Positions 7,494 to 47,429 of a stretch of 64,000 bases of DNA are shown one piece after another. The translations under genes and the position numbers were made by a program. Source of the DNA: Cenococcum geophilum 1.58 (lineage: Eukaryota; Ascomycota; Dothideomycetes; Gloniales; Gloniaceae). How positions within the stretch are numbered: the first letter of the stretch is position 1; every line of letters begins with the position of its first letter. The DNA lies in the NCBI GenBank assembly GCA_001692895.1, contig KV748264.1, positions 372,001 to 436,000 of the forward strand. Reading direction: 5' to 3'. Under the pieces are notes generated by a model that worked only from the letters and a program-made list of their open reading frames with translations, was not told the origin of the DNA and made no database searches.

Positions 7494-8976
7494 TTACAGC
7501 AGCTTTACGATCGCCTCGTGCCCGTTCCTCGCAGCCCACGACAGCGGCGTCCGACCAAACTTAGAGTCCTTCAAGTCTGCATCCACCTTACCAGTATTGA
7601 GTAGCAGCTTCACGATCGCCTCGTGCCCGTTCCCCGCAGCACACGACACCGGTGTCCGACCAGAACCCTTCGAGTCCGCGTCCACCTTGCCGGTATTGAG
7701 CAGCAGCTTCACGACCGCCTCGTGCCCGCTCCGCGCAGCCCACCACAGCGGCGTCCGACCGTAAGAACCCTTTGAGTCTGTATCCACCTTATCGGTATCA
7801 AGTAGCAGCTTCACGGTCGCCTCGTGGCCCTTCTCCACAGCCCACCACAGAGGCGTCCGACCGTAAGAGTCCTTCGAGTCCGCGTCCACCTTATTAGCAT
7901 TGAGCAGCAGCTTTATGATCGCCTCGTGCCCTTTCTCCGCAGCCCGCGACAGCAGCGTCCGACCGATAGAGTCCTCACAGTCCGCGTCCACCTTACCAGT
8001 ATCGAGCAGCAGCTTCACGATCGCCTTATGCCCCTTCTCCACAGCCCACCACAGAGGCGTCTAACCGTACGAGTCCTTCAAGTCGGCTCCGATGTTGCTA
8101 TCTTCGTGCCTACCCATCAAAAGCCTCTCTGTCAAGTAAAGCAGTCCATACCTAGCTGTAAGGTACAGTCCACTTATTCGATTTGGGAACCTTCTACTAT
8201 AACGTACTTTACAAGCGAGTCGCGTATATAAGGGAGTCGCGCACTGCAAAACCCCACCAAAATCGCGATTTTTTGACCCTAGTAAAATCAACCAATTCTT
8301 AATAATAATTTATGCAAATTTAATAGCGGCCTATTAATGCAATAACTAACTTATATAGGAAGTACTGGAAATCTTACATAAGCGGAAGTAGGTTAAATAG
8401 GAAAGTGGGGGCCAAATTGCCCTACTTTTCCGATTTAACCTACTTCCGCTTATGTAAGATTTCCAGTACTTCCTATATAAGTTAGTTATTGCATTAATAG
8501 GCCGCTATTAAATTTGCATAAATTATTATTAAGAATTGGTTGATTTTACTAGGGTCAAAAAATCGCGATTTTGGTGGGGTTTTGCAGTGCGCGACTCCCT
8601 TATATACGCGACTCGCTTGTAAAGTACGTTATCTTTATATTTAAATTTTGGCATCAACACAGCTTGGATAATACAGTCAACCAAGGCTTCGTCGCAAAGG
8701 AAAGTTAGCGCTAAACGAGACGTAGTATTTTCTACCGGTCGCATATGCTCGCTCTAGTAATCTGCTAAGTACTCAAAGAATGCATTTTCGGCTAGCCTCT
8801 GTTCGAAAGCTTTATCGTCGGCACAACTGCCGCTCCGAAACGTGTCAAAGGATAAGTACGTTATACAGGCTACCGCTATCTTTTCCTGAGCGCCAGGGTT
8901 CCATTCAAAGCGTACTTACTCAAAGTACTCCTGTGTCGTGTAATGCACGAGACGGACGACGTTGCTTTCCTCGTCT
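7494..8976 (-). pseudogene. NACHT-ankyrin NLR pseudogene, 3' part
   Basis: This is the C-terminal part of the NLR whose N-terminal part lies at 33479-35178. Reading on the minus strand from 8976, it gives the post-NACHT helical segment typical of fungal NACHT-ankyrin proteins (DEESNVVRLVHYTTQEYFE, then AVACITYLSFDTF), then the entry to the ankyrin domain (RRFPNRISGLYLTARYGLLY around 8190-8130), then about six ankyrin repeats of about 34 residues with the GRTPL..AA..GHEA.VKLLL pattern, ending at a TAA at 7494. Breaks: a MITE at 8202-8629, a TAG at 8061-8063 where a repeat expects Arg, and a TGA...TAG pair near 8895 and 8755. The repeats 7494-8042 are open and little mutated. NLRs of this kind act in non-self recognition; this copy cannot make a full protein. 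Confidence 0.88.
8202..8629. mobile_element. 428-bp hairpin MITE inside the NLR
   Basis: A near-perfect palindrome: arms of about 200 bp starting ACGTACTTTACAAGCGAGTC and meeting at a short centre near 8405-8430. TA lies on both sides (8200-8201 and 8630-8631), as for Tc1/mariner-pogo insertions. It shares ACGT termini and an inner CCCCACCAAAATC motif with the MITE in the kinase-patatin gene. It interrupts the NLR coding sequence just before the ankyrin domain. The arms are almost identical, so insertion is recent or arms are kept alike by conversion. Confidence 0.88.
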
Positions 8977-10311: not shown

Positions 10312-10573
10312 ATGCACGACTAGCTTCCACCCTTTGGCGAGCGCTCTAAAATTTTAAATTTAGTGTATCCAATCTTATATAAGTAAAAGAAAGAGAAAGG
10401 GGAATGTTTATTAAGGAAGTGTATATTAGGCAAGTTCTAAGCTAATTCTCCTAGCTAACCAGAATAATTCTCTAAGGCATAGTCCTTGCGCGTAGCCATA
10501 ACCGTTTAGTAGCGATTAAGCGAGATTGGATGTGGAGCGCTCGTTAAAAGGGGGTGGAAGCTAGCCGTGTACA
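10312..10573. mobile_element. 260-bp MITE at the left edge of the Crypton array
   Basis: Ends are inverted repeats of about 37 bp containing GGCTAGCTTCCACCC-type sequence (10320-10337 and 10548-10566, reversed) followed by GCGAGCGCTC-type sequence. Interior has no coding signal. It sits exactly between the foldback arm and the first Crypton unit; boundaries are approximate. Confidence 0.6.
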
Positions 10574-10574
10574 T

Positions 10575-13530
10575 CAATAGTATGTCCACGGTTCGATTTG
10601 TATGGCTGAATCAGCCGCTGAGTCAGATTTTATAGGCGAAGAGGCCCGTGCGCTTAGTGGCATGTGGATGTTACCCTATATCTACGGTCGATCTACGATC
10701 GCCAGCGATACCGCGCTCTTAATACCCGTTGAGCGCTATGCGTAGAGCTAGCTAAGAGCTCTCTACTCGCACTAGAATGGTAAGAATTGGCCGTAGGTTA
10801 ATAAAGATATTTATATTTTAAGTTGGGCGCCACTATTGTATAAGCACCCTACTAAACTTATACCGCACTAAAATAAGCCCCTAAGGGGCTATAGATAAAG
10901 GTTTTAATAGAAGACTCCTTAGTATTTTAGAGATATATACTATTTAATAGCTTTTTTACCCGCTTAAAGCCGTTTATAAAGCTAATCTAGCGAGCACTGT
11001 ATCTACTTCTACTGTAAATTAACCTGCTATATAGCCGCTTCCTCGCTAACCCTCTAGGCCTACGCGACCCGCTTAATCTCCTTAATAACCTTAGGCCGTA
11101 GGGAGTACTATTAGAGCTTATTCTGCCGGCTAGCCCGCTATCTACTACCCTATTTAGAATCTAGCGCTGCTATAAAAGGATTACCTTTAAGCCCCTTAGT
11201 CCACTTACGCTAAAGGGCCCGTATGGACTTTACTGTACGGCATATATAATATACGGGCGGCTGCTTAGGCGGGAGCTTAAGCTTAAGCTTAGACTTAGGC
11301 CCTTACTGCGGCTATAGCTACGGCTATAGCTACGGCGGCGTTAGTAAAGGGGAAGCTATAGCGCTTACCTAGGCCAATATATACTAGCTTAATCCCGCAA
11401 TAGATAGAGGCGCCAGTGCTATTAGTAGATATGCTATTAGTGGCCGTGCCAAAGGGACCTTAAGCTAAAAGGTAAGGCTACTAGATATAAGCAATTAAAG
11501 CTATAAAGACTGCGCCTACTAAGACTTGGCTATATAATTAAATAACGCCTATAGCTTACCTACTCTTTAGTTATTCTTACGTACCCTCTAGTTATTCTAG
11601 GCGTCTATAGTCTTTAGGCAGTCCGTAATAGCTAGCATAGCCTAGTAGAGTATTAATAGCTAGCTAGGGCCTTCTTCCTCCTACTATAGATAGGTTTCGA
11701 CCTTCCGCGTAAAGGGTAGATAGGCCTTATACTAAAAGACAGGGTGGTTCTATATAGGGCTGCTTAGGAATATCTCGCGGAGGACTACTAAGTCCTATAG
11801 GATAACCTCCTAGAGGTAAAATAAGAGGTTCGTGGCGCCTATAGCTATAAGGTCGTTAATTTAGCCGACCTAAGGGCTAAACTAACCTTTCTAGACGTCT
11901 AGATCTGGCTAGATTGTCAATAGTAGTACGTTAAGGGGGGCGACGCTTACCCTATAAATCTTAAAGCAGCCTATCTATAGTGTATAGCCAGTCATCGTCC
12001 GTATAAACTCCTGCGGTAGCGAGTTTAAGTAGTAGCTAACTATCTACTCCTGGTTCTACCTACTAGCGCGTCTAATTTAGTCCTTACTAACCCCTTTTAG
12101 CTCTACCGTTTTAGCGCTAGCGCTTTATCTAATATAGGTTTTCTTTTATAAGAAGACGCTAATATACTAAAACACCTTAGCAACCTACTCCCGCTACAAG
12201 TTATACGAGAAGGCCGCCTTATAGTCCCTAGCGCTGCTCTTAATTAGGCGGATATTATACCATACTAACCGCTTACTAAAGTCCGGAAATAGCTTATCGC
12301 TAAGGTCCTAGCGATATAGGAGGTAAAAAGCTAGCCCGCTAAGTATATAAACAAGCGGCTTCTTATTACATAGAGCCCTAATAGTCTTAAGGCGGCCGTA
12401 CTAGTTCTGCTTACTAGCGTATATAGTAAATATTAGGGGCATATAGCGGGTAGGGCCTTTCCCCTTAAACTTAAAGGTAAATAAGTCTAAGATCTTAGTA
12501 GAGCGCCTATTACCGCTATGGGTAAGCATATAGTGGCCTAGTAGGATATCTATAAGCGTATAGAGGTAGCATTCTAGCAAGGAGTCTCTATGGGCCTATA
12601 GCTGGCGGCAGATATTCTTAAACTCGTCCTCCGTATATCCATTAAGTAGCGTGTCTCTACCCTTATCCGTAAACTACTGCTTTTCCTACTACGCGTCCCT
12701 CCGTTATAGAATCTTAAAGTACTCCCTAACGTTATCCTCCTGCGGGAACTAGTAGCTGTTTATTCCTATGGCCTTCTACGCCTAATAGAGGTCTATTAGG
12801 GCCGTAATATAGCCGCGAACTAAGTGCTAGGAGAGCCGTGTCTTATCCTAGGGTACGTTATTACTAGCCTTACGGCTTTTTACTTTTAGTAGCTAGCCTA
12901 TAACCTCCTTAACGAGAAAAAGAAGTAGTTTCTCCTTTATAACGGTATTAGTATTATAGTACTACTTCTTCTTATAAAAGGCCTAGGAAGACGCGCGTTA
13001 GCTATAAGTATACTACTCCATAAAGTATCTAGCTACCTACCTTAAACTCCTTCTACTTCGGCTTATAATTTAAAGACGTGTTTTTAGGCCTCTTAGCACG
13101 CGTAAGGGCGAGAATACTCTATGCGTTAGCGCGTAGTTCGGCATTATTCGCGACGTTAATCTCTACGCGACTAATTAACGCTATTTTTAAGATAGGACGC
13201 TGCTAAAGAAGCTATGCCCTAGGGGGATTTCTATTTTTTATATATACACAGATAGAGACCGGGGAGAAGAGGTAGAGAAAGTATACCTACTAGCCGTTTA
13301 GTAAGCAGATAAATGACCTTACCGTATAGGGTAAATATATAGGCGCACGGCTGGCCTAATAGGCTAATAGTACGCGTGCATTAGCGACTTAATTAGTAGG
13401 GGTAAAGACATTTAAAGATGTCCACGGCTTAGCTATAGGCTCGGCTATAAATATCCGCGAATATTAATGGGGGTTATATATATTATATACGGCTTAGTAA
13501 CTAAGCGGGCGCTTAGCTAAGCCGTAAACA
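10575..13530 (-). mobile_element. Crypton unit 1 (tyrosine recombinase), RIP-degenerate
   Basis: First of four head-to-tail units of about 2.94 kb. Minus-strand coding from about 13200 to 10880: N-terminal INVANNAELRANA...RPKNTSL segment, then an intron 12983-13040 (GTAGGT, branch GCTAAC, CTAG), then a long recombinase region of the NDC10_II/Crypton type: YTEDEFKNICRQL near 12620, LLGHYMLTHSGNRRS near 12510, KSSARDYKAAFSYN near 12200, and KGVSKDQIRRA...YYLNSLP near 12090-12030, which contains the C-terminal Arg and candidate catalytic Tyr. The C-terminal part (CRTVKSI.ALQRKWTKGLKG near 11210) is a GCR1_C DNA-binding domain. Stops fall at Gln/Trp codons. Cryptons are circular-intermediate DNA transposons that use this recombinase. 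Confidence 0.85.
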
Positions 13531-16460
13531 CTAATAGTATATCCACAGTTCGATTTATATAGCTAAATTAGCCGCTAAGTTAGATTTTATAGGCGAAGAG
13601 GCCCGTGCGCTTAGTGGTATATAGATATTACCCTATGTCCACAGTCAATCTATAATCGCTAGCGACACCGCGCTCTTAATACCCGTTGAGCGCTATATAT
13701 AGAGCTAGCTAAGAGCTCTTTACTCGCACTAGAATGGTAAGAATTAGCCGTAGGTTAATAAAGATATTTATATTTTAAGTCGGGCGCCGCTATTATATAA
13801 GTACCCTACTAAACTTATACCGCACTAAAATAAGCCCCTAAGGGGCTATAGACAAAGGTTTTAATAGAAGACTCCTTAGTATTTTAGAGATATATACTAT
13901 TTAATAGCTTTTCTACCCACTTAAAGCCGTTTATAAAGCTAATCTAGCGAGTACTATATCTACTCCTATTATAGATTAACCTACTATATAGCCGCTTCCT
14001 CGCTAACCCTCTAGGCCTACATAACCTGCTTAATCTCCTTAATAACCTTAAGCCGTAGGAAGTACTATTAGAGCTTATTCTACCAGCCAGCCCGCCATCT
14101 ACTACCCTATTTAAAATCTAGCGCTGCTACAAAAGAATTACCTCTAAGCCCCTTAGTCTACTCGCGCTAAAGGGCCCGTATAAACTTTACCGCATAGTAT
14201 ATATAATATACAGGCAGCTGCTTAGGCGGGAGCTTAAGCTTAAGCTTAGACTTAGGCCCTTACTACGGCTATAGCTGCGGCTATAGCTACGGTAGCGCTA
14301 GTAAAGGGGAAGCTACAGCGCTTACCTAGGCCGACGTATACTGGCTTAATCCCGCAATAAATAGAGGCGCCAGTGCCGTTAATAGATATACCGTTAGTAG
14401 CCGTGCCGAAAGGACCTTAAGTTAAAAGGTAAGGCTACTAGATATAAGCAATTAAAGCTATAAAGACTGCGCCCACTAGGACTTGGCTATATGGTTAAAT
14501 AACACCTATAACTTACCTACTCTCTAGTCGTTCTTACGTGCCCTTTAGTTATTTTAGGCGTCTATAGTCTTTAGGTAGTCCGCAATAGCTAGCTAGGGCC
14601 TTCTTCCTCCTACTATAGGTAGGTTTCGACCTTTCGCGTAAAGGGTAGATAGGCCTTATACTAGAAGACAGGGTGGTTCTATATAGGGCTACTTAGGAAT
14701 ATCTTGCAGAGAACTACTAAGTCCTATAGGATAACCTCCTAGAGGTAAAATAAGAGGTTTATAGCGCCTATAGCTATAAGGTCGTTAATCTGGCTAACTT
14801 AAGGGCCGAACTAACCTTTTTAGACATCTAGATCTGGCCAGATCATTAACAATAGTACGTTAAGGGGGGCGACACTTACCCTATAAATCTTAAAGCAGCC
14901 TATCTACGGCGTATAGCCGGCTATCGTCTGTATAAACTCCCGTAGTAGCGAGTTTAAGTAATAGCTAACTATCTGCTCCTAGTTTTACCTACTAGCGTAT
15001 CTAATCTAGTCCTTACTAACCCCTTTTAGCTCTGCCGTCTTAGCGCTAGCGCTTTGTCTAATATAGGTTTTCTTCTATAAGAAGACGCCAATATACTAAA
15101 ACGCCTTAGTAACCTACTCCCACTATAAGTTATATAAGAAGGCCGCCTTACGGTCCCTAGCGCTGCTCTTAATTAGGCGGATATTATATTACACTAACCG
15201 CTTACTAAAGTCTAGAAATAGCTCGTTGCTAAGGTTCTAGTAATATAGGAGGTAAAAAGCTAGCCCGCTAAGTATATAGACGAGCGGCTTCTTATTATAT
15301 AGAGCCCTAATAATCTTAAGGCGGCCGTACTAGTTCTACTTACTAGTATATATAGTAAATATTAGGGGTATACAGCGGGTAGGGCCTTTCCCCTTAAACT
15401 TAAAGGTAAATAAGTCTAAGATCTCAGCAGAGCGCCTATTACCGCCGTAGGTAAGTATATAGTGGCCTAGTAGGATATCTACGAGCGTATAGAGGTAGCA
15501 TTCTAGCAAGGAGTCTTCACGGGCCTATAGCTAGCAGCAGATGTTCTTAAACTTATCCTTTATATATCCGTTAAGTAGTATATCTCTACCCTTATCCGTA
15601 AACTACTGCTTTTCCCACTACGCGTCCCTCCGTTATAGAATCTTAAGGTACTCTCTAACGTTATCCTCCTATAGGGACTAGTAGCTATTTATCCCTATAG
15701 CCTTCTGCGCCTAGTAAAGGTCTATTAAGGCCGTAATATAGCCGCGAATTAAGCGCTAGGAGAGCCGCGTCTCGTCCTAGGGTACGTTATTACTAACCTT
15801 ACGGCTTTTTACTTTTAGTGGCCGGCCTATAACCTCCTTAATAAGGAAAAGAAGTAGCTTCTCCTCTATAATAGTATCGGTATTATAGTACTGCTTCTTC
15901 TTATAAAAGGCCTAGGAAGACACGCGTTAGCTATAAGTATATTACTCTATAAAGCATCTAGCTACCTACTTTAAACTTCTTCTACTTTGGCTTATAATTT
16001 AGAGATATATTTTTAGGCCTCTCGGCACGCATAAGGGTAAGGATACTCTACGCGTTAGCGCGTAGTTTGGCATTATTCGCGACATTAATCTCTACGCGAC
16101 TAATTAACGCTATTTTTAAAATAGGACGCTGCTAGAGAAGCTATGCCCTAAAGGGGTTCCTATTTTTTATATATACACAGATAGAGACTAGGGAGGAAAG
16201 GTAGAGAAAGTATACCTACTAGCCGTTTAATAAGCGGATAAGTGACCTTATTATATAGGGTAAATATATAGGCACACGGCTGGCCTAATAGGCCAATAGT
16301 ACGCGTGCATTAGCGACTTAATTAGTAGGGGTAAAGACATTTAAAGATGTCCACGGCTTGGCTATAGGCTTGGCCGTGGACATCCGCGAATGTCAATAGG
16401 GGTTATATGTGTCACGTGCGGCTTAGTAACTAAGTGGGCGCTTAGCTAAGCTGTAAACAC
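13531..16460 (-). mobile_element. Crypton unit 2, RIP-degenerate
   Basis: Second tandem unit, colinear with unit 1 over its whole length and directly abutting it. Same recombinase and GCR1_C reading frame, broken at its own set of sites, with a few small deletions (for example one near 14590, where unit 1 has an extra stretch of about 30 bp). Separate mutation patterns show RIP acted after the array formed, or in several rounds. Confidence 0.85.
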
Positions 16461-19396
16461 CAATAGTATATCTACGGTTCGATTTATATGGCTGAATTAG
16501 CCACTGAGTTAGATTTTATAGGCGAAGAGGCCCGTGCGCTCAGTGGTATATAGATATTACCCTATATCCACGGTCGATTTACGATCGCCAGTAATACCGC
16601 GCTCTTAATACCCGTCAAGCGCTATACGTAGAGCTAGCTAAGAGCTCTCTACTCGCACTAGAATGGTAAGAATTAGCTATAGGTTAATAAAGATATTTAT
16701 ATTTTAAGTTGGGCGCTACTATTATATAAGCACCCTACTAAACTTATACTGCACTAAAATAAGCCCCTAAGGGGCTATAGACAAAGGTTTTAATAGAAGA
16801 CTCCTTAGTATTTTAGAGATATATACTATTTAATAGCTTTTTTACCCGCTTAAAGCCGTTTATAAAGCTAATCTAGTAAGCACTATATCTACTTCTACTA
16901 TAAATTAACCTGCTATATAGCCGCTTCCTTACTAACCCTCTAGGCCTATACAACCCGCTTAATCTCCTTAATAATCTTAAGCCGTAGGGAGTACTATTAG
17001 AGCTTGTTCTGCCGGCTAGCCTACTATTTACTACCCTATTTAGAATCTAGCGCTACTACAAAAGGATTACCTCTAAGCCCCTTAGTCCACTTACGCTAAA
17101 GGGCCCGTATAGACTTTACTGTACGGCATATATAATATACGGGCGGCTACTTAGGCGGGAGCTTAAGCTTAAGCTCAGACTTAGGCCCTTACTGCGGCTA
17201 TAGCTACGGCTATAGCTGCGGTAGCGCTAGTAAAGGGGAAGCTATAGCGCTTACCTAGGCCAATATATACTGGCTTAATCCCGCAATAGATAGAGGCGCT
17301 AGTGCTATTAGTAGATATACTATTAGTGGCCGTGCTAAAGGGACCTTAAGCTAAAAGGTAAGGCTACTAGACGTAAGTAATTAAAGCTATAAAGACTACG
17401 CCTACTAAGACTCGGCTATATAATTAAATAACGCCTATAGCTTGCCTACTCTCTAGTTATTCTAGGCGTCTATAGTCTTTAGGCAGTCTATAATAGCCGG
17501 CACGGCCTAATAGAGTATTAATAGCTAGCTAGGGCCTTCTTCCTCCTGCTATAGGTAGGTTTCGACCTTCCGCGTAAAGGGTAGATAGGCCTTATACTAG
17601 AAGATAGGGTGGTTCTATATAGGGCTACTTAGGAATATCTTGCGGAGGACTACTAAGTCCTATAGGATAACCTCCTAGAGGTAAAATAAGAGGTTTGTGG
17701 CGCCTTTAGCTATAAGGTCGTTAATTTGGCCGACCTAAGGGCCGAACTAACCTTTCTAGATGTCTAGATCTGGCTAGATTGTCGATAGTAGTACGTTAGG
17801 GGGGGCAACGCTTACCCTATAAATCTTAAAGCAGCCTATCTACGGCGTATAGCCGGCTATTATCTATATAAACTCCCACGGTAGCGAGTTTAAGTAGTAG
17901 CTAACTATCTGCTCCTAGTTCTACCTACTAGCGCGTCTAATCTAGTCCTTGCTAACCCCTTTTAGCTCTGCCGTCTTAGCGCCAGCGCTTTATCTAATAT
18001 AGGTTTTCTTCTATAAGAAGACGCTGATGTACTAGAACGCCTTAGCAACCTACTCCCGCTGCGAGTTATATAAGAAGGCCGCCTTATAGTCCCCAGTGCT
18101 GCTCTTAATTAGGTGGATATTATACCACGCTAACCGCTTACTAAAGTCCGGAAATAGCTCGTCGCTAAGGTCCTAGTGATATAGGAGGTAAAAAGCTAGC
18201 CTACTAAGTATATAGATAAGCGGCTTCTTATTACGTAAAGCCCTAATAATCTTAAGGCGGCTATACTAGTTCTGTTTACTAGCGCGTATAGTAAATATTA
18301 GGGGTATATAGCGGGTAGAGCCTTCCCCCTTAAACTTAAAGGTAAATAAGTCTAAGATCTTAGCGGAGCGCCTATTACCGCCATGGGTAAGTATATAGTG
18401 GCCTAATAGGATATCCACGAGCGTGTAGAGGTAGCATTCTAGTGAGGAGTCTCTATAGGCCTATAGCTGGCGGCAGACGTTCTTAAACTCGTCCTCCGTA
18501 TATCCGTCAAGTAGTGTATCTCTACCCTTATCCGCAAACTACTGCTTTTCCTACTACGCGTCCCTCCGTTATAGAATCTTAAGGTACTTCCTAACGTTAT
18601 CCTCCCGCGGGAATTAGTGGCTATTTATTCCTATGGCCTTCTACGCCTAGTAGAGGTCCGTTAGGGCCGTAATATAGCCGTAAACTAAGTGCTAGGAGAG
18701 CCGCGTCTCGTCCTAGGGTACGTCATTACTAGCCTTATAGCTTTTTACTTTTAGTAGCTAGCCTATAACCTCCTTAATAAGAAAAAGAAGTAGCTTCTTC
18801 TTTATAACGGTATTAGTATTATAGTACTACTTCTTCTTATAAAAGGCCTAGGAAGACGCGCGTTAGCTATAAGTATACTACTCTATAAAGCATCTAGCTA
18901 CCTACCTTAAACTCCTTCTACTTCGGCTTATAATTTAAAGACGTGTTTTTAGGCCTCTTGGCACACATAAGGGCGAGGATACTCTACGCGTTAGCGCGTA
19001 ATTTGGCATTATTCGCGACGTTAATCTCTACGCGACTAATTAACGCTATTTTTAAGATAGGACGCTGCTAGAGAAGCTATACCCTAGGGGGATTCCTATT
19101 TTTTATATATACACAGATAGAGACTAGGGAGGAGAGGTAGAGAAAGTATACCTATTAGCCGTTTAGTAAGCGGATAAGTGACCTTACTATATAGGGTAAA
19201 TATATAGGCGCACGGCTGGCCTAATAGGCTAATAGTACGCGTGTATTAGCGACTTAATTAGTAGGGGTAAAGACATTTAAAGATGTCTATGGCTTAGCTA
19301 TAGGCTTGGCTATAGACATCCGCGAATATTAATAGGGGTTATATATATTACGTGTGGCTTAGTAACTAAGCGGGCGCTTAGCTAAGCCGTAAACAC
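16461..19396 (-). mobile_element. Crypton unit 3, RIP-degenerate
   Basis: Third tandem unit, period 2936. Same order of domains on the minus strand. Has a small deletion near 17460 compared with unit 1. The unit boundary keeps the hairpin-forming GTCCACGGC...GCCGTGGAC block (16348-16382). Confidence 0.85.
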
Positions 19397-19747
19397 CAAT
19401 AGTATGTCTACAGTTCGATTTATATAGCTAAATTAGCCGCTAAGTCAGATTTTATAGGCGAAGAGGCCCGTGCGCTTAGTGGTATATAAATATTACCCCA
19501 TATTTACAGTTAATCTATAATCGCTAGCGATACCACGCTCTTAATACCTGTTGAGCGCTATATATAGAGCTAGCTAAGAGCTCTTTACTCGCACTAGAAT
19601 GGTAAGAATTAGCCATAGGTTAATAAAGATATTTATATTTTAAGTCGGGCGCCGCTATTATATAAGCACCTTACTAAACTTATACTGTACTAAAATAAGC
19701 CCCTAAGGGGCTATAGATAAAGGTTTTAATAGAAGACTCCTTAGTAT

Positions 19748-30098: not shown

Positions 30099-30387
30099 TA
30101 TAGTGGTGTGATTTGGCCCCTAGATTTAATATTTAAATTAGGCATAGCTTTGGGAGAGCCTAGGCCTTCCACAAGTTATATAGATTGGTCTAGAGCCCTT
30201 AGAGTCTTTAATAACTTAGGCAACACCAACAAACACACAACTTTCCTTAAATACACTCTTTTCTTTCTCTTTATACTGCTTAATTCTGACTAATTATAAC
30301 CGACTGATAAACCGACCAACAGACTAACTAACAGACTGACTAACAGCACTGTGACTTTCCTATCTTAGAGAGGTCGTACCCTCCTAT
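30099..30387 (+). repeat. 3' LTR
   Basis: 289 bp, same length as the 5' LTR, ends CCTCCTAT followed by the AGTAT target duplication. Confidence 0.9.
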
Positions 30388-32998
30388 AGTATTTTAGAGA
30401 TATATACTATTTAATAGCTTTTTTACCTACTTAAAGCCGTTTATAAAGCTAATCTAGCAAGTACTATATCTACTCCTACTATAGATTAACCTACTATATA
30501 GCCGCTTCCTCGCTAACCCTCTAGGCCTATATAACCTACTTAATCTCCTTAATAACCTTAAGCCGTAGGAAGTACTATTAGAGCTTATTCTGCCAGCTAG
30601 CCCGCTATCTATTACCCTATTTAGAATCTAGCGCTACTATAAAAGAATTACCTCTAAGCCCCTTAGTCTATTTACGCTAAAGGGCCCGTATAAACTTTAC
30701 TGTATAGTATATATAATATATAGGCGGCTACTTAGGTAGGAGCTTAAGCTTAAGCTTAGACTTAGGCCCTTACTACGGCTATGGCTACGGCTATAGCTAC
30801 AGTAGCGCTAGTAAAGGGGAAGCTATAGCGCTTACCCGGGCCGACGTATACTAACTTAATCCCGCAATAGATAGAGGCGCTAGTGCCGTTAGTAGATATA
30901 CTATTAATAGCCGTGCCAAAGGGACCTTAAGCTAAAAGGTAAGGCTACTAGACGTAAGCAATTAAAGCTATAAAGACTACGCCTACTAGGACTCGGCTAT
31001 ATAGTTAAATAACGCCTATAACTTACCTACTCTTTAGTTATTCTTACGTGCCCTCTAGTTATTTCGGGCGTCTATAGTCTTTAGGTAGTTTATAATAGCC
31101 AGCATAGCCTAATAGAGTATTAATAGCTAGCTAGGGCCTTCTTCCTCCTGCTATAGGTAGGTTTCGACCTTCCGCGCAAAGGGTAGATAGGCCTTATACT
31201 AGAAGACAGGGTGGTTTTATATAGGGCTACTTAGGAACATCTTGTAGAGGACTACTAAGTCCTATAGAATAACCTCCCAGAGGTAAAATAAGAGGTTTAT
31301 AGCGCCTATAGCTATAAGGTCGTTAATTTAGCCAACCTAAGGGCCGAACTAACCTTTTTAGACGTTTAGATCTGGCCAGATTATTAATAGTAGTACATTA
31401 GGGGGGGCGACGCTTGCCCTATAAATCTTAAAGCAGCCTATCTACGGCGTATAGCCGGCTATCGTCCGCATAAACTCTTATAGTAGTAAGTTTAAGTAGT
31501 AGCTAACTATCTACTCCTAGTTTTACCTACTAGCGTATCTAATCTAGTCCTTACTAACCCCTTTTAGCTCTGCCATCTTAGCGCCAGCGCTTCGTCTAAT
31601 ATAGGTTTTCTTCTATAAGAAGACACCAATATACTAAAACGCCTTAGTAACCTACTCCCGCTATAAGTTATATAAGAAGGCCGCCTTACGGTCCCCAGCG
31701 CTACTCTTAATTAGGCGGATATTATACTACACTAACCGCTTACTAAAGTCCGGAAATAGCTCGTTACTAAGGTCCTAGCGATATAGGAGGTAAAAAGCTA
31801 GCCCACTAAGTATATAAATAAGCGGCTTCTTATTATATAGAGCCCTAATAGTTTTAAGGCGGCCGTACTAGTTCTACTTACTAGCGCGTATAGTAAATAT
31901 TAGGGGTATATAGCGGGTAAGGCCTTCCCCCTTAAACTTAAAGGTAAATAAGTCTAAGATCTTAGCAGAGCGCCTATTACCGCCGTAGGTAAGTATATAG
32001 TGGCCTAGTAGGATATCTATAAGCGTGCGGAGGTAGCATTCTAGCGAGGAGTCTCCGTAGGCCTATAGCTAGTAGCAGACGTTCTTAAACTTATCCTCTA
32101 TATATCTGTTAAGTAGTATATCTCTACCCTTATCCGTAAACTACTGCTTTTCCCGCTACGCGTCCCTCCGTTATAGAATCTTAAGGTACTCCCTAACGTT
32201 ATTCTCCTGCGGGGACTAGTGGCTGTTTATCCCTATAGCCTTCTACGCCCGGTAGAGGTCTATTAGGGCTGTAATATAGCCGCGAACTAAGCGCCAGGAG
32301 AGCCGCGTCTCGTCCTAAGGTACGTTATTATTAGCCTTACGGCTTTTTACTTTTAGTAGCCGGCCTACAACCTCCTTAATAAGGAAAAGAAGTAGCTTCT
32401 CCTTTATAATAGTATCGGTATTATAATACTGCTTCTTCTTATAAAAGGCCTAGGAAGACGCGCGTTAGCTATAAGTATACTACTCTATAAAGCATCTAGC
32501 TACCTACCTTAAACTTCTTCTACTTCGGCTTATAATTTAGAAACATATTTTTAGGCCTCTTGGCACGCGTAAGGGTAAGAATACTCTACGCGTTAGCGCG
32601 TAGTTCGGCATTATTCGCAACGTTAATCTCTACGCGACTAATTAACGCCATTTTTAAGATAGGACGCTGCTAGAGAAGCTATGCCCTAGGGGGGTTTCTA
32701 TTTTTTATATATACACAGATAGAGACTAGGGAGGAGAGGTAGAGAAAGCATACCTACCGGCCGTTTAATAAGCGGATAAGTGACCTTACCGCATAGGGTA
32801 AATACATGGGCGCACGGCTGGCCCAATAGGCCAATAGTACGCGTGCATCAGCGACTCAATTAGTAGGGGTAAAGACATTCAAAGATGTCCACGGCTTGGC
32901 TGCAGGCTCGGCCGTGGACATCCGCGAATGTCGACGGGGGTTGTATGTGTCACGTGCGGCTCAGCGACTGAGCGGGCGCTCAGCCGAGCCGTGAACAC

Positions 32999-44295: not shown

Positions 44296-47200
44296 ATGGA
44301 ATCGAAAGCGGGAAATTCCCTTGTAGTTAACTTAGGTGACGACTTGACAATCGCAAATCGCAATTCTCTGCCTTACAAGCATCTCGAAAGCCTTGGTGTT
44401 GGTGGCAGCGCCTTCGTTGAGAAGGTGCAAAATACAACAACCGGTGAAATATTCGCGCACAAGGTCTTCCGGAGATACCATGGCCCAAATCTTACAAAAT
44501 TCAAAGAAGAAGTTCAGAATGAGATACAGATCGTACGGCGATTATCCTCCCATCCGCATATCATTCAGGTGTTTGCGACATATACTTGCGGTCGCGAGCT
44601 CGGCATGATCCTCACCCCGGTCGCAGACAGAGGGGACCTGGCGAGTTATCTCCAGGATATAGCGGATTCTGGCCGTCCGCTGACATATGAGCAAAGAGCT
44701 ATCCTCAACCGAGCTTTTGGATGCCTTGCTAGTGGACTTGCATTTATTCACGAGCAAACAATCCGACATAAGGATATTAAACCGCAAAATATCCTTATCC
44801 ACCAAGGCCGGGTTATCTACGCGGATTTCGGCATCGCGTTTGACGCCAGTCAGCATGACAGCACCACCACGGTTGGCACATCCCAAGCATTCACTTTTCG
44901 TTATTGTGCTCCAGAAGTTGCGAACTCAGCGAAGAGAAATAGGAAATCTGACATCTTCTCCCTTGGCTGTGTTTTCATCGAGATTCTGGAGGCTGTGTGC
45001 CCCCTTATCAAGGCGGAACCGTTAGGAAGAGTGCCATACCATAAGATTATCGATGACCTTCGCAGTATGCTCATCAATGCTATGGCGCATGTTATGGGAG
45101 CGGTGTGGAAAGGGTTGATTCGCGTGTGTCTTGAGGTGTTCGTATCTGAGCCAGAGGAGCGAATCAGTGCAGAAGGCCTTGTTCGAGAGCTGAGTTCATT
45201 GGGTAACCACAACAGTCACTTTCTACGAATCATATTTTGCGACAATTGCCGAGAGAAGCGTCTTCCACATCTCATCAAACGCACCGATGGTACTCAACCA
45301 TGCTCCAATTCCAAAATCCAAGAGAACCCTGATCAGCTTCAAGGCAGGTTCTCGTACACCATCGAGTTGAGAATCGTCAATAAAACAAATGACACGTTCG
45401 ATGTTGTTGAAGAGAGAGGAACTTGGGCTGAACTTGAAGGCGGCTATCTCCTTTTAATGGAAGTTAGCGGTACCTCTGGGATGCTCCGTTTTAAATCGTT
45501 TGCTGGAGAGACATTTTGCTTGGTTGTGGGCTTTCACAACTATAAGAGGTGGTGCGATATTGTTGTCGATCTCAACGACGATGACACTGCCCAGAAGATT
45601 TATTCAACTTACTACGATATATTTCACTCGAGATATAGTGTGCCTTGGAAACAAATAAGCGAAATCACAAGAACCACTAAGGGGGGGACGACACTAAAGA
45701 TCAATTTCTCCGAAAAGGATGGCCGCAAGTTAGTCGCTGATTTCACCATTGAAGGAACCCCCAAGCAACTAAAGATCCTCTCTATCGGTAAGGAAGGGCC
45801 CAGGTGTCTAAATAATTATAACGCTTACTGACACACTTAGATGGGGGCGGAATCCGCGGACTTTCTAGTCTCCTGATTTTAGAGAGGATAATGCATCGAC
45901 TGCGCAAGGAGTTGAAAAAGCCAAATATTGAGCCGTATCAGCACTTTGACCTCATTGGAGGCACCAGCACTGGGGGGTAAGTGGCTTTAAATGGAACGTG
46001 GCAGCTAGCTTGCCATATACTAACGGAATAACTACACAGGATTATCGCCCTCATGCTTGGTCGTCTCCGCATGGGTGTCAAGGAATGTATCAATGAATAC
46101 TGCTCACTCAGCATAAGCGTGTTCAGTAACGTAATCCACAAGCAAGTGGCCAGCACAAGCATGTGGCCACCTCACCAAAAAACCAAAAAATCGTTCTTTA
46201 ATATTTCAACAACGGCTTAATAATAAATTATAAAATTTTATAATTAGACTCTTATACTTACTTTAAGACTTCTATTAAAGTTTTAAAGTAATTTACTAAG
46301 TGGTTCTTAAGATATAATAATTAGGCTTAAATTTAAAAGCTAAATCGTAATATATTAATAACGGCTAAACCAATTACTCTAAAACTTTAATAGAGGTCTT
46401 AAAGTAAGTACGAGAGTCTAATTATAAAATTTTATAATTTATTATTAAGCCGTTGTTAAAATATTAAAGAACGATTTTTTGGGTTTTTGGTGATTTTGGT
46501 GGGGTGGCCACATGCTTGTGCTGGCCACTTGCTTATGAATTACGTTAGTCGTCAAACCTCCGGGGATGGGGAAATGTTCAAGGCCAAGGACCTCGAGAAC
46601 GCGATCAAAGCCATAATTGAGAAGAAACTAGGAACGGACAAAATCAATGCTCCGCTGCTCGATCCACTCGGGGATAAGTCGTGTAAGACGTATGTTTAAT
46701 AAAAACCCATAAGCGTTAATAGGACTAGCTAATTAACTATGGCATTTTAGGATCGTGTTTACTATAGCAAGAGACCATGCAAACAGTGCCGCGCCAACAA
46801 AGCTTCGAACTTACAAGAGTAGAGTCAGCCCTTCGGGAGATTGTACGATCTGGCAAGCCGCGATGGCGACATCCGCTACACCGCCGTTCTTTCCACCAAT
46901 ACCATTGACACTCTCATCACCAATACCGGTTGAATACATTGACCCAGGCATAGGATTTAATAATCCATCGCGAGCAATTCTTACCGAAGCTGGGACAATA
47001 TGGGGTGACACATACGGTGAAATGGATTTCAACCAAGAAATAGGCTTTTTTCTCAGTCTTGGAACTGGGCTTCCAAAAGTTGCAAGACTAGACCATGAAT
47101 CTGTTAAAAATTGGATCTCAATACAGCAAATTCCGCTAAAAGCAGTTGAAGTCCTTGGGGCTATAGCAAGGGACTGTGAAAAAACCCATAATGAAATACC

Positions 47201-47429
47201 TAACCATTTCCTTTACAAATTACAGATATATCATCGGTTTAACGTCGAGCAAGGACTCCAGGAAACGCAACTTTTTGAACATAAGAAGCTAGGGCAAGTG
47301 CAAGCAGATACCAACGCCTACCTTGACAAGAAAGACAACGAAGCGAAGATCACCTCTTGCGTGGAACAAATGTCTAAGCTGCACGTTAAGGAACAGATCC
47401 CCACACTGGATGCTCATGAATTTGAATGA
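44296..47429 (+). CDS. Protein kinase - fruit-body lectin - patatin fusion gene (MITE-interrupted)
   Basis: Exons 44296-45787, 45841-45976, 46040-46128 continuing at 46548-46689, and 46751-47429; introns 45788-45840 (GTAAGG...CTGAC...TTAG), 45977-46039 and 46690-46750. Leaving out the 417-bp MITE and one TA, the total is divisible by three (845 codons plus stop). Residues 27-300: Ser/Thr kinase with G-loop 34-39, Lys56, Glu76, HKD 158-160, DFG 177-179, APE 205-207, all intact. Residues about 352-487: fungal fruit-body lectin (FB_lectin) family, with SGTSGMLRF and GFHNYKRWCDIV. Residues 493 onward: patatin phospholipase, oxyanion loop DGGGIRG 498-504, nucleophile Ser540 in GGTSTGG, second catalytic Asp684 in a DPG motif. 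No signal peptide seen, so cytosolic. Likely roles: sugar or glycan recognition coupled to phosphorylation and lipid cleavage, perhaps in defence or incompatibility; this is inference. Confidence 0.82.
46129..46545. mobile_element. 417-bp hairpin MITE in the kinase-patatin gene
   Basis: Arms start ACGTAAT(C/T)CA and run AAGCAAGTGGCCAGCACAAG into an AT-rich interior; the right arm is the reverse complement. TA at 46127-46128 and 46546-46547. It sits in exon 3. Counting only one TA, the exon stays in frame across the site, so the insertion is clean and probably young. As it stands the protein would end within the insertion unless the element is spliced out. Confidence 0.88.

Follow-up and report, generated by a model that had tools for sequence, protein, structure and literature searches.

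We analysed a 64,000-nucleotide (nt) stretch of the genome of Cenococcum geophilum 1.58 (contig KV748264.1, positions 372,001 to 436,000), called the window below and numbered from its first letter. Its forward strand carries a gene that joins a protein kinase, a fungal fruit-body lectin (FB_lectin) and a patatin phospholipase domain, and a repeat element lies within the patatin coding region (Table 1). The kinase and the lectin are encoded by a single open frame, and exons 1 and 2, exon 3 as far as the element and both pieces past it are free of stops. Profile searches were run separately on the pieces before and after the element. The left piece matched Pkinase, FB_lectin (profile positions 2-139 of 140) and Patatin (40.8 bits, residues 495-554), each above its Pfam cut-off, in keeping with the domain calls of the original prediction, which had been made from the letters alone; the coding sequence past the element (parts a and b together) matched Patatin as well.

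Table 1. Features of the kinase-lectin-patatin gene, in coordinates of the window.
Feature	Position	Strand	Evidence
Exon 1, kinase and FB_lectin	44296..45787	+	Open frame; identical in P0001 (see text)
Protein kinase domain, residues 27-296	44374..45183	+	PF00069, 135.9 bits
Fungal fruit-body lectin domain, residues 353-482	45352..45741	+	PF07367, 122.1 bits; XCL best in PDB by sequence; predicted fold
Intron 1, GTAAGG...TTAG, 53 nt	45788..45840	+	Missing from P0001
Exon 2, patatin start, DGGGIRG to GGTSTGG (nucleophile serine)	45841..45976	+	PF01734; in P0001
Intron 2, GTAAGT...ACAG, 63 nt	45977..46039	+	Missing from P0001
Exon 3 as far as the inserted element	46040..46126	+	Open frame; P0001
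Near-palindromic repeat element, 421 base pairs (bp), TA at each end, within patatin coding region	46127..46547	.	Inverted repeats; genome copies
Patatin coding sequence past the element, part a	46548..46689	+	Open frame; Patatin 33.6 bits with part b
Predicted intron 3, GTATGT...TTAG, 61 nt	46690..46750	+	Sequence only; transcript support not found
Patatin coding sequence past the element, part b, with aspartate motif (DPG) and stop codon	46751..47429	+	Open frame; alignment

The fusion is real, and one mRNA is demonstrated for the kinase, the lectin and the start of the patatin domain. A public protein collection includes an entry, P0001, of 605 residues with seven member sequences and one contig of 1896 nt, whose source tag, lgn, we take to stand for the Logan assemblies. 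P0001 equals the gene over residues 1-572 and spans both junctions (45787/45841 and 45976/46040) without introns 1 and 2. Its 605 codons and stop amount to 1818 nt, which with the two introns would become 1934 nt; the contig is too short for the introns, and P0001 therefore derives from spliced RNA. Since it crosses both junctions, the kinase, the lectin and the patatin start lie on one message, and two adjacent genes misread as one could be ruled out. Thus the fusion first proposed from the letters, both of its splice junctions and the joining of the DGGGIRG patatin loop directly behind the lectin through intron 1 are all confirmed by a spliced product. No transcript of the gene's own 3' part was found when the piece past the element was searched against the collection (634 candidates yielded 10 matches, of which the top one was about 50% identical).

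The original prediction had passed over the element by which the patatin domain is split. Its arms are 88% complementary at 46172-46328 and 46337-46493 and 89% complementary at 46127-46190 and 46484-46547; they have an exact 32-nt run in common. The element is 28.7% guanine plus cytosine and has stops in all three forward frames. The genome search gave no fewer than 41 places, the one in this gene counted (82 rows, two per place for the two strands), a lower bound, as the best 40 of 586 candidates were scored. The ten best copies are full length at 94-100% identity, all ten begin and end with TA, and their 15-nt flanks look unrelated; with terminal inverted repeats, many copies and TA at both ends, the element has the features of a TA-target miniature inverted-repeat element. 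The nine other best copies (L004-L012) are 94-98% identical to the copy in this gene, which suggests that the family was recently active.

Continued past exon 3, the reading frame meets a stop at 46218, inside the element, after 602 residues, and a genome search that reads through stops places 21 of them within the patatin match at this gene. The patatin serine (GxSxG) lies before the element and the aspartate (DxG) after it, and with the in-frame stop between them they do not belong to one polypeptide. The assembled allele should therefore yield neither the 845-residue protein nor an active patatin. By its reading frame it should encode about 602 residues, namely the kinase, the lectin and a stub of the patatin that has the serine but lacks the aspartate, and its patatin activity should be lost. 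The continuous frame across three short introns that had been described is thus interrupted, and the three introns (53, 63 and 61 nt) do not suffice for 845 residues; for that length another 419 nt would need to be skipped.

If the element were spliced out of some messages, some full-length patatin protein would still be made. We tested GT-AG pairs across the element, with donors up to the first stop and acceptors to 46600, and 20 of the 60 keep the reading phase, though this equals the chance expectation of one in three. None of the 12 GT sites from the start of exon 3's frame to the in-frame stop is a strong donor, by a list of seven hexamers chosen for this test with GTAAGG (the donor of intron 1) added, and the single transcript product found, P0001, reads into the element and ends there. 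We regard such splicing as most improbable. The same end of P0001, together with a complete and transcribed kinase-lectin frame, could be taken to mean that the truncated protein is the working product, the lectin bringing the kinase to its target, a protein or something that bears glycans, while the patatin stub is dispensable. A stub of about 80 residues would be unlikely to fold alone, and past the element the sequence still has an open frame and resembles patatin, which suggests that the insertion is recent and not an established new form; a working truncation is, in our judgement, distinctly unlikely.

The lectin domain is well marked. When the entire genome was searched in all six frames, FB_lectin matched at two places, and the score at this gene, on which the three-domain call depended, was the best (126 bits). 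The other match (53.2 bits; C24:85344-85502; L002, L034) is a broken remnant resembling a stand-alone lectin, with one stop inside; no kinase piece was found near it, as tblastn of our left piece against the surrounding 9.9 kilobases (kb) gave lectin pieces only. By sequence, the best PDB match is XCL (89.8 bits). A model of the domain (mean predicted local distance difference test score, pLDDT, 79.5; nine-sequence alignment) has fungal lectins as its nine best PDB fold matches, with template-modelling (TM) scores of 0.82-0.85, followed by actinoporins at about 0.5-0.66, so that the domain is predicted to have the fruit-body-lectin/actinoporin-like fold. Profile, PDB sequence match and predicted fold together rule out a false FB_lectin match. 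In an alignment compared by eye, the sugar-contact residues of SRL are kept at D77, I78, R101, H70 and Y72 and changed at T80, Y112 and R105. The lectin alone, searched against the protein collection among entries of about 76-243 residues, gave 8 matches among 17 candidates. The valine that replaces T80 is also found in seven of eight relatives compared. Sugar binding by the domain is plausible. The top-scoring relatives (query 45343-45759) are two proteins of the liverwort Marchantia, at 44%.

The kinase has what we take to be the glycine-rich loop at 34, the lysine K56, the catalytic HKD at 158-160 (D160), DFG at 177-179 and APE at 205-207. The claim that the motifs are intact has to be amended: K56, D160 and DFG are present, while HKD replaces HRD and the patatin aspartate motif is DPG where five of ten aligned relatives have DAG. 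HKD is also found in the closest kinase paralogue (on C15), which is 59% identical over 230 aligned codons and is joined to WD40 repeats. The two kinases differ at 72, 49 and 131 of the 230 first, second and third codon positions, a pattern that fits past protein-level constraint on the kinase. At the C15 locus (C15:482780-484992; L033:2781-4993) about 630 nt lie between the matches to the first and the second part of the kinase.

Against the genome, P0001 gave at least 74 matches (best 72 of 293 candidates scored), among them this gene, patatin-only and element-only matches and many kinases. Among 19 kinase-paralogue frames, read without intron resolution and four of them cut at the edge of the fetched stretch, WD40 repeats were found in three (C15, C13, C44), TPR in one and two weak zinc-finger matches, below cut-off, in one; none of the 19 frames scanned had a lectin or a patatin. 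Nor did we find a near copy of the gene elsewhere in the genome; for the last patatin exon, the next best match is 34% identical. When the lists of genome matches were compared by eye, no other patatin among the matches listed lay within 10 kb of a kinase match, the nearest being about 10.7 kb away (C77). At a patatin paralogue on C23 (L069) the patatin frame is followed by a WD40-like frame, recognised by eye (222-1208 and 1462-2109, both on the minus strand), with which it may form one gene. Kinase and patatin domains of these kinds thus have other partners in this genome.

The gene may be a dying pseudogene, a chance shuffle of domains in a repeat-rich region that was transcribed and was functionless before and after the insertion. 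Its patatin is interrupted by the element, the window contains repeats, and the sole other FB_lectin match of the genome search is a broken remnant; in addition, the patatin aspartate motif, DPG, is unlike that of relatives (among 10 aligned, five have DAG, three begin after the motif and two differ). The gene is nevertheless transcribed and spliced, the exons up to the element and both later pieces have no stops, the core motifs of the kinase and the lectin are kept, and the codon-position pattern of the kinase is consistent with past constraint. We consider a functionless shuffle unlikely, if a serious contender.

The fusion may be rare. Residues 300-520, searched against about 5.8 billion predicted proteins with candidate length limited to about 315-1001 residues, gave one match among 1002 candidates, and this was P0001 itself. 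The protein collection is believed to break intron-bearing fungal genes, so the single match is weak evidence of rarity, and fungal coverage of this search for a second fusion was probably poor. In the open-licence literature, covered partly by searches on some terms only, we recognised no kinase-FB_lectin-patatin protein, and the accessible part of the main text of a survey of fungal lectins (PMC8227253) has no occurrence of "kinase" or "fused". As far as these limited searches show, the fusion is undescribed.

Elsewhere in the window, repeat units at 10563-19684 and 30099-31421 are spaced about 2.93-2.96 kb apart, and more copies follow at a distance of about 13.6 kb; the listed copies are 75-95% identical to their references. 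An ankyrin-repeat frame (7497-8060, minus strand) lies over a direct repeat with 102-nt spacing.

We propose that the gene encodes a modular recognition-type protein whose executor is disabled in this allele, a reading in which we place about as much belief as doubt. The reading is suggested by three precedents. The HET-B protein (BH) of Podospora anserina has a HET domain, HAD and a C-terminal domain with the FB-lectin fold, and a chimera showed that the lectin-fold region determines recognition specificity; that paper otherwise describes FB-lectins as defence lectins of fruiting bodies (PMC10890737). In Neurospora, cell death through PLP-1, a patatin NOD-like receptor (NLR), requires patatin activity, and both Pkinase and Patatin are among the N-terminal domains listed for fungal NLRs. 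By analogy, a sensor-effector design is plausible. Ser/Thr-type kinase, fruit-body-lectin and patatin phospholipase domains would have become joined in one spliced mRNA, with an original role in self/non-self or intruder recognition. The lectin could act as the sensor, its ligand being a glycan or else a protein, the latter as has been proposed for HET-B; the signal could be passed on or gated by the kinase; and the patatin would be the executor, damaging membranes and causing cell death. A putatively non-autonomous, TA-flanked DNA element lies in the patatin coding region, so that the assembled allele and P0001 both run out within the element, after about 602-605 residues. In this allele the executor step was probably lost and at most a kinase-lectin protein is left.

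Several observations weigh against the proposed recognition role. The last stretch of P0001 corresponds to the other arm of the element and not to the gene-adjacent arm of the assembly. This tail may reflect either an arm-switch in the assembly, which is possible in short-word assembly because of the 32-nt run that the arms share, or another orientation of the element in the sequenced strain. Neither piece of the gene has a Pfam match to NACHT, NB-ARC or the HET domain at E <= 0.01, and on the domains tested the gene product falls among neither the NLRs nor the HET proteins. Only part of the SRL sugar contacts are kept, and the departure of DPG from most relatives showing the motif fits decay as well as divergence. 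The decay of a non-functional shuffle accounts for the data almost as well as the recognition reading. A bolder form of the proposal would make the gene a member of an undescribed class of one-chain fungal immune receptors, in which the lectin senses, the kinase gates and the patatin executes with no nucleotide-binding switch, while the transposon provides a pair of armed and disarmed alleles kept in the population; we think this very unlikely. Should the recognition reading be true, it would carry the idea behind HET-B over to a new set of partners and link a fold that binds glycans with an enzyme of the cell-death type. A natural comparison of whether the patatin arm is needed would be open if the element proves to be present in some strains and absent from others.

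Among known systems, the frames on C15, C13 and C44 of this genome combine a kinase of the same type with WD40 repeats, where this gene has the lectin and the patatin. With XCL, BEL, SRL and ABL the lectin has in common the domain family, the predicted fold and the core stretches SGTSG and HNYKRWCD; those proteins are free-standing and of about 140 residues, whereas the lectin here lies inside a longer chain, its N-terminal loop is shortened and some of its sugar contacts differ. HET-B likewise has a fruit-body-lectin-type fold within a larger protein, but it combines HET and HAD with a fold only distantly related to FB-lectins, while here a clear Pfam FB_lectin match has a kinase and a patatin as partners and no HET domain was found at the threshold given above. 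PLP-1 has an N-terminal patatin followed by NB-ARC and TPR; in this gene the order is kinase, lectin, patatin, and a nucleotide-binding switch domain was not detected. PLP-1 belongs to a protein family that carries out cell death upon recognition, and its patatin phospholipase domain is what the two have in common; the patatin of this gene may once have had such a role.
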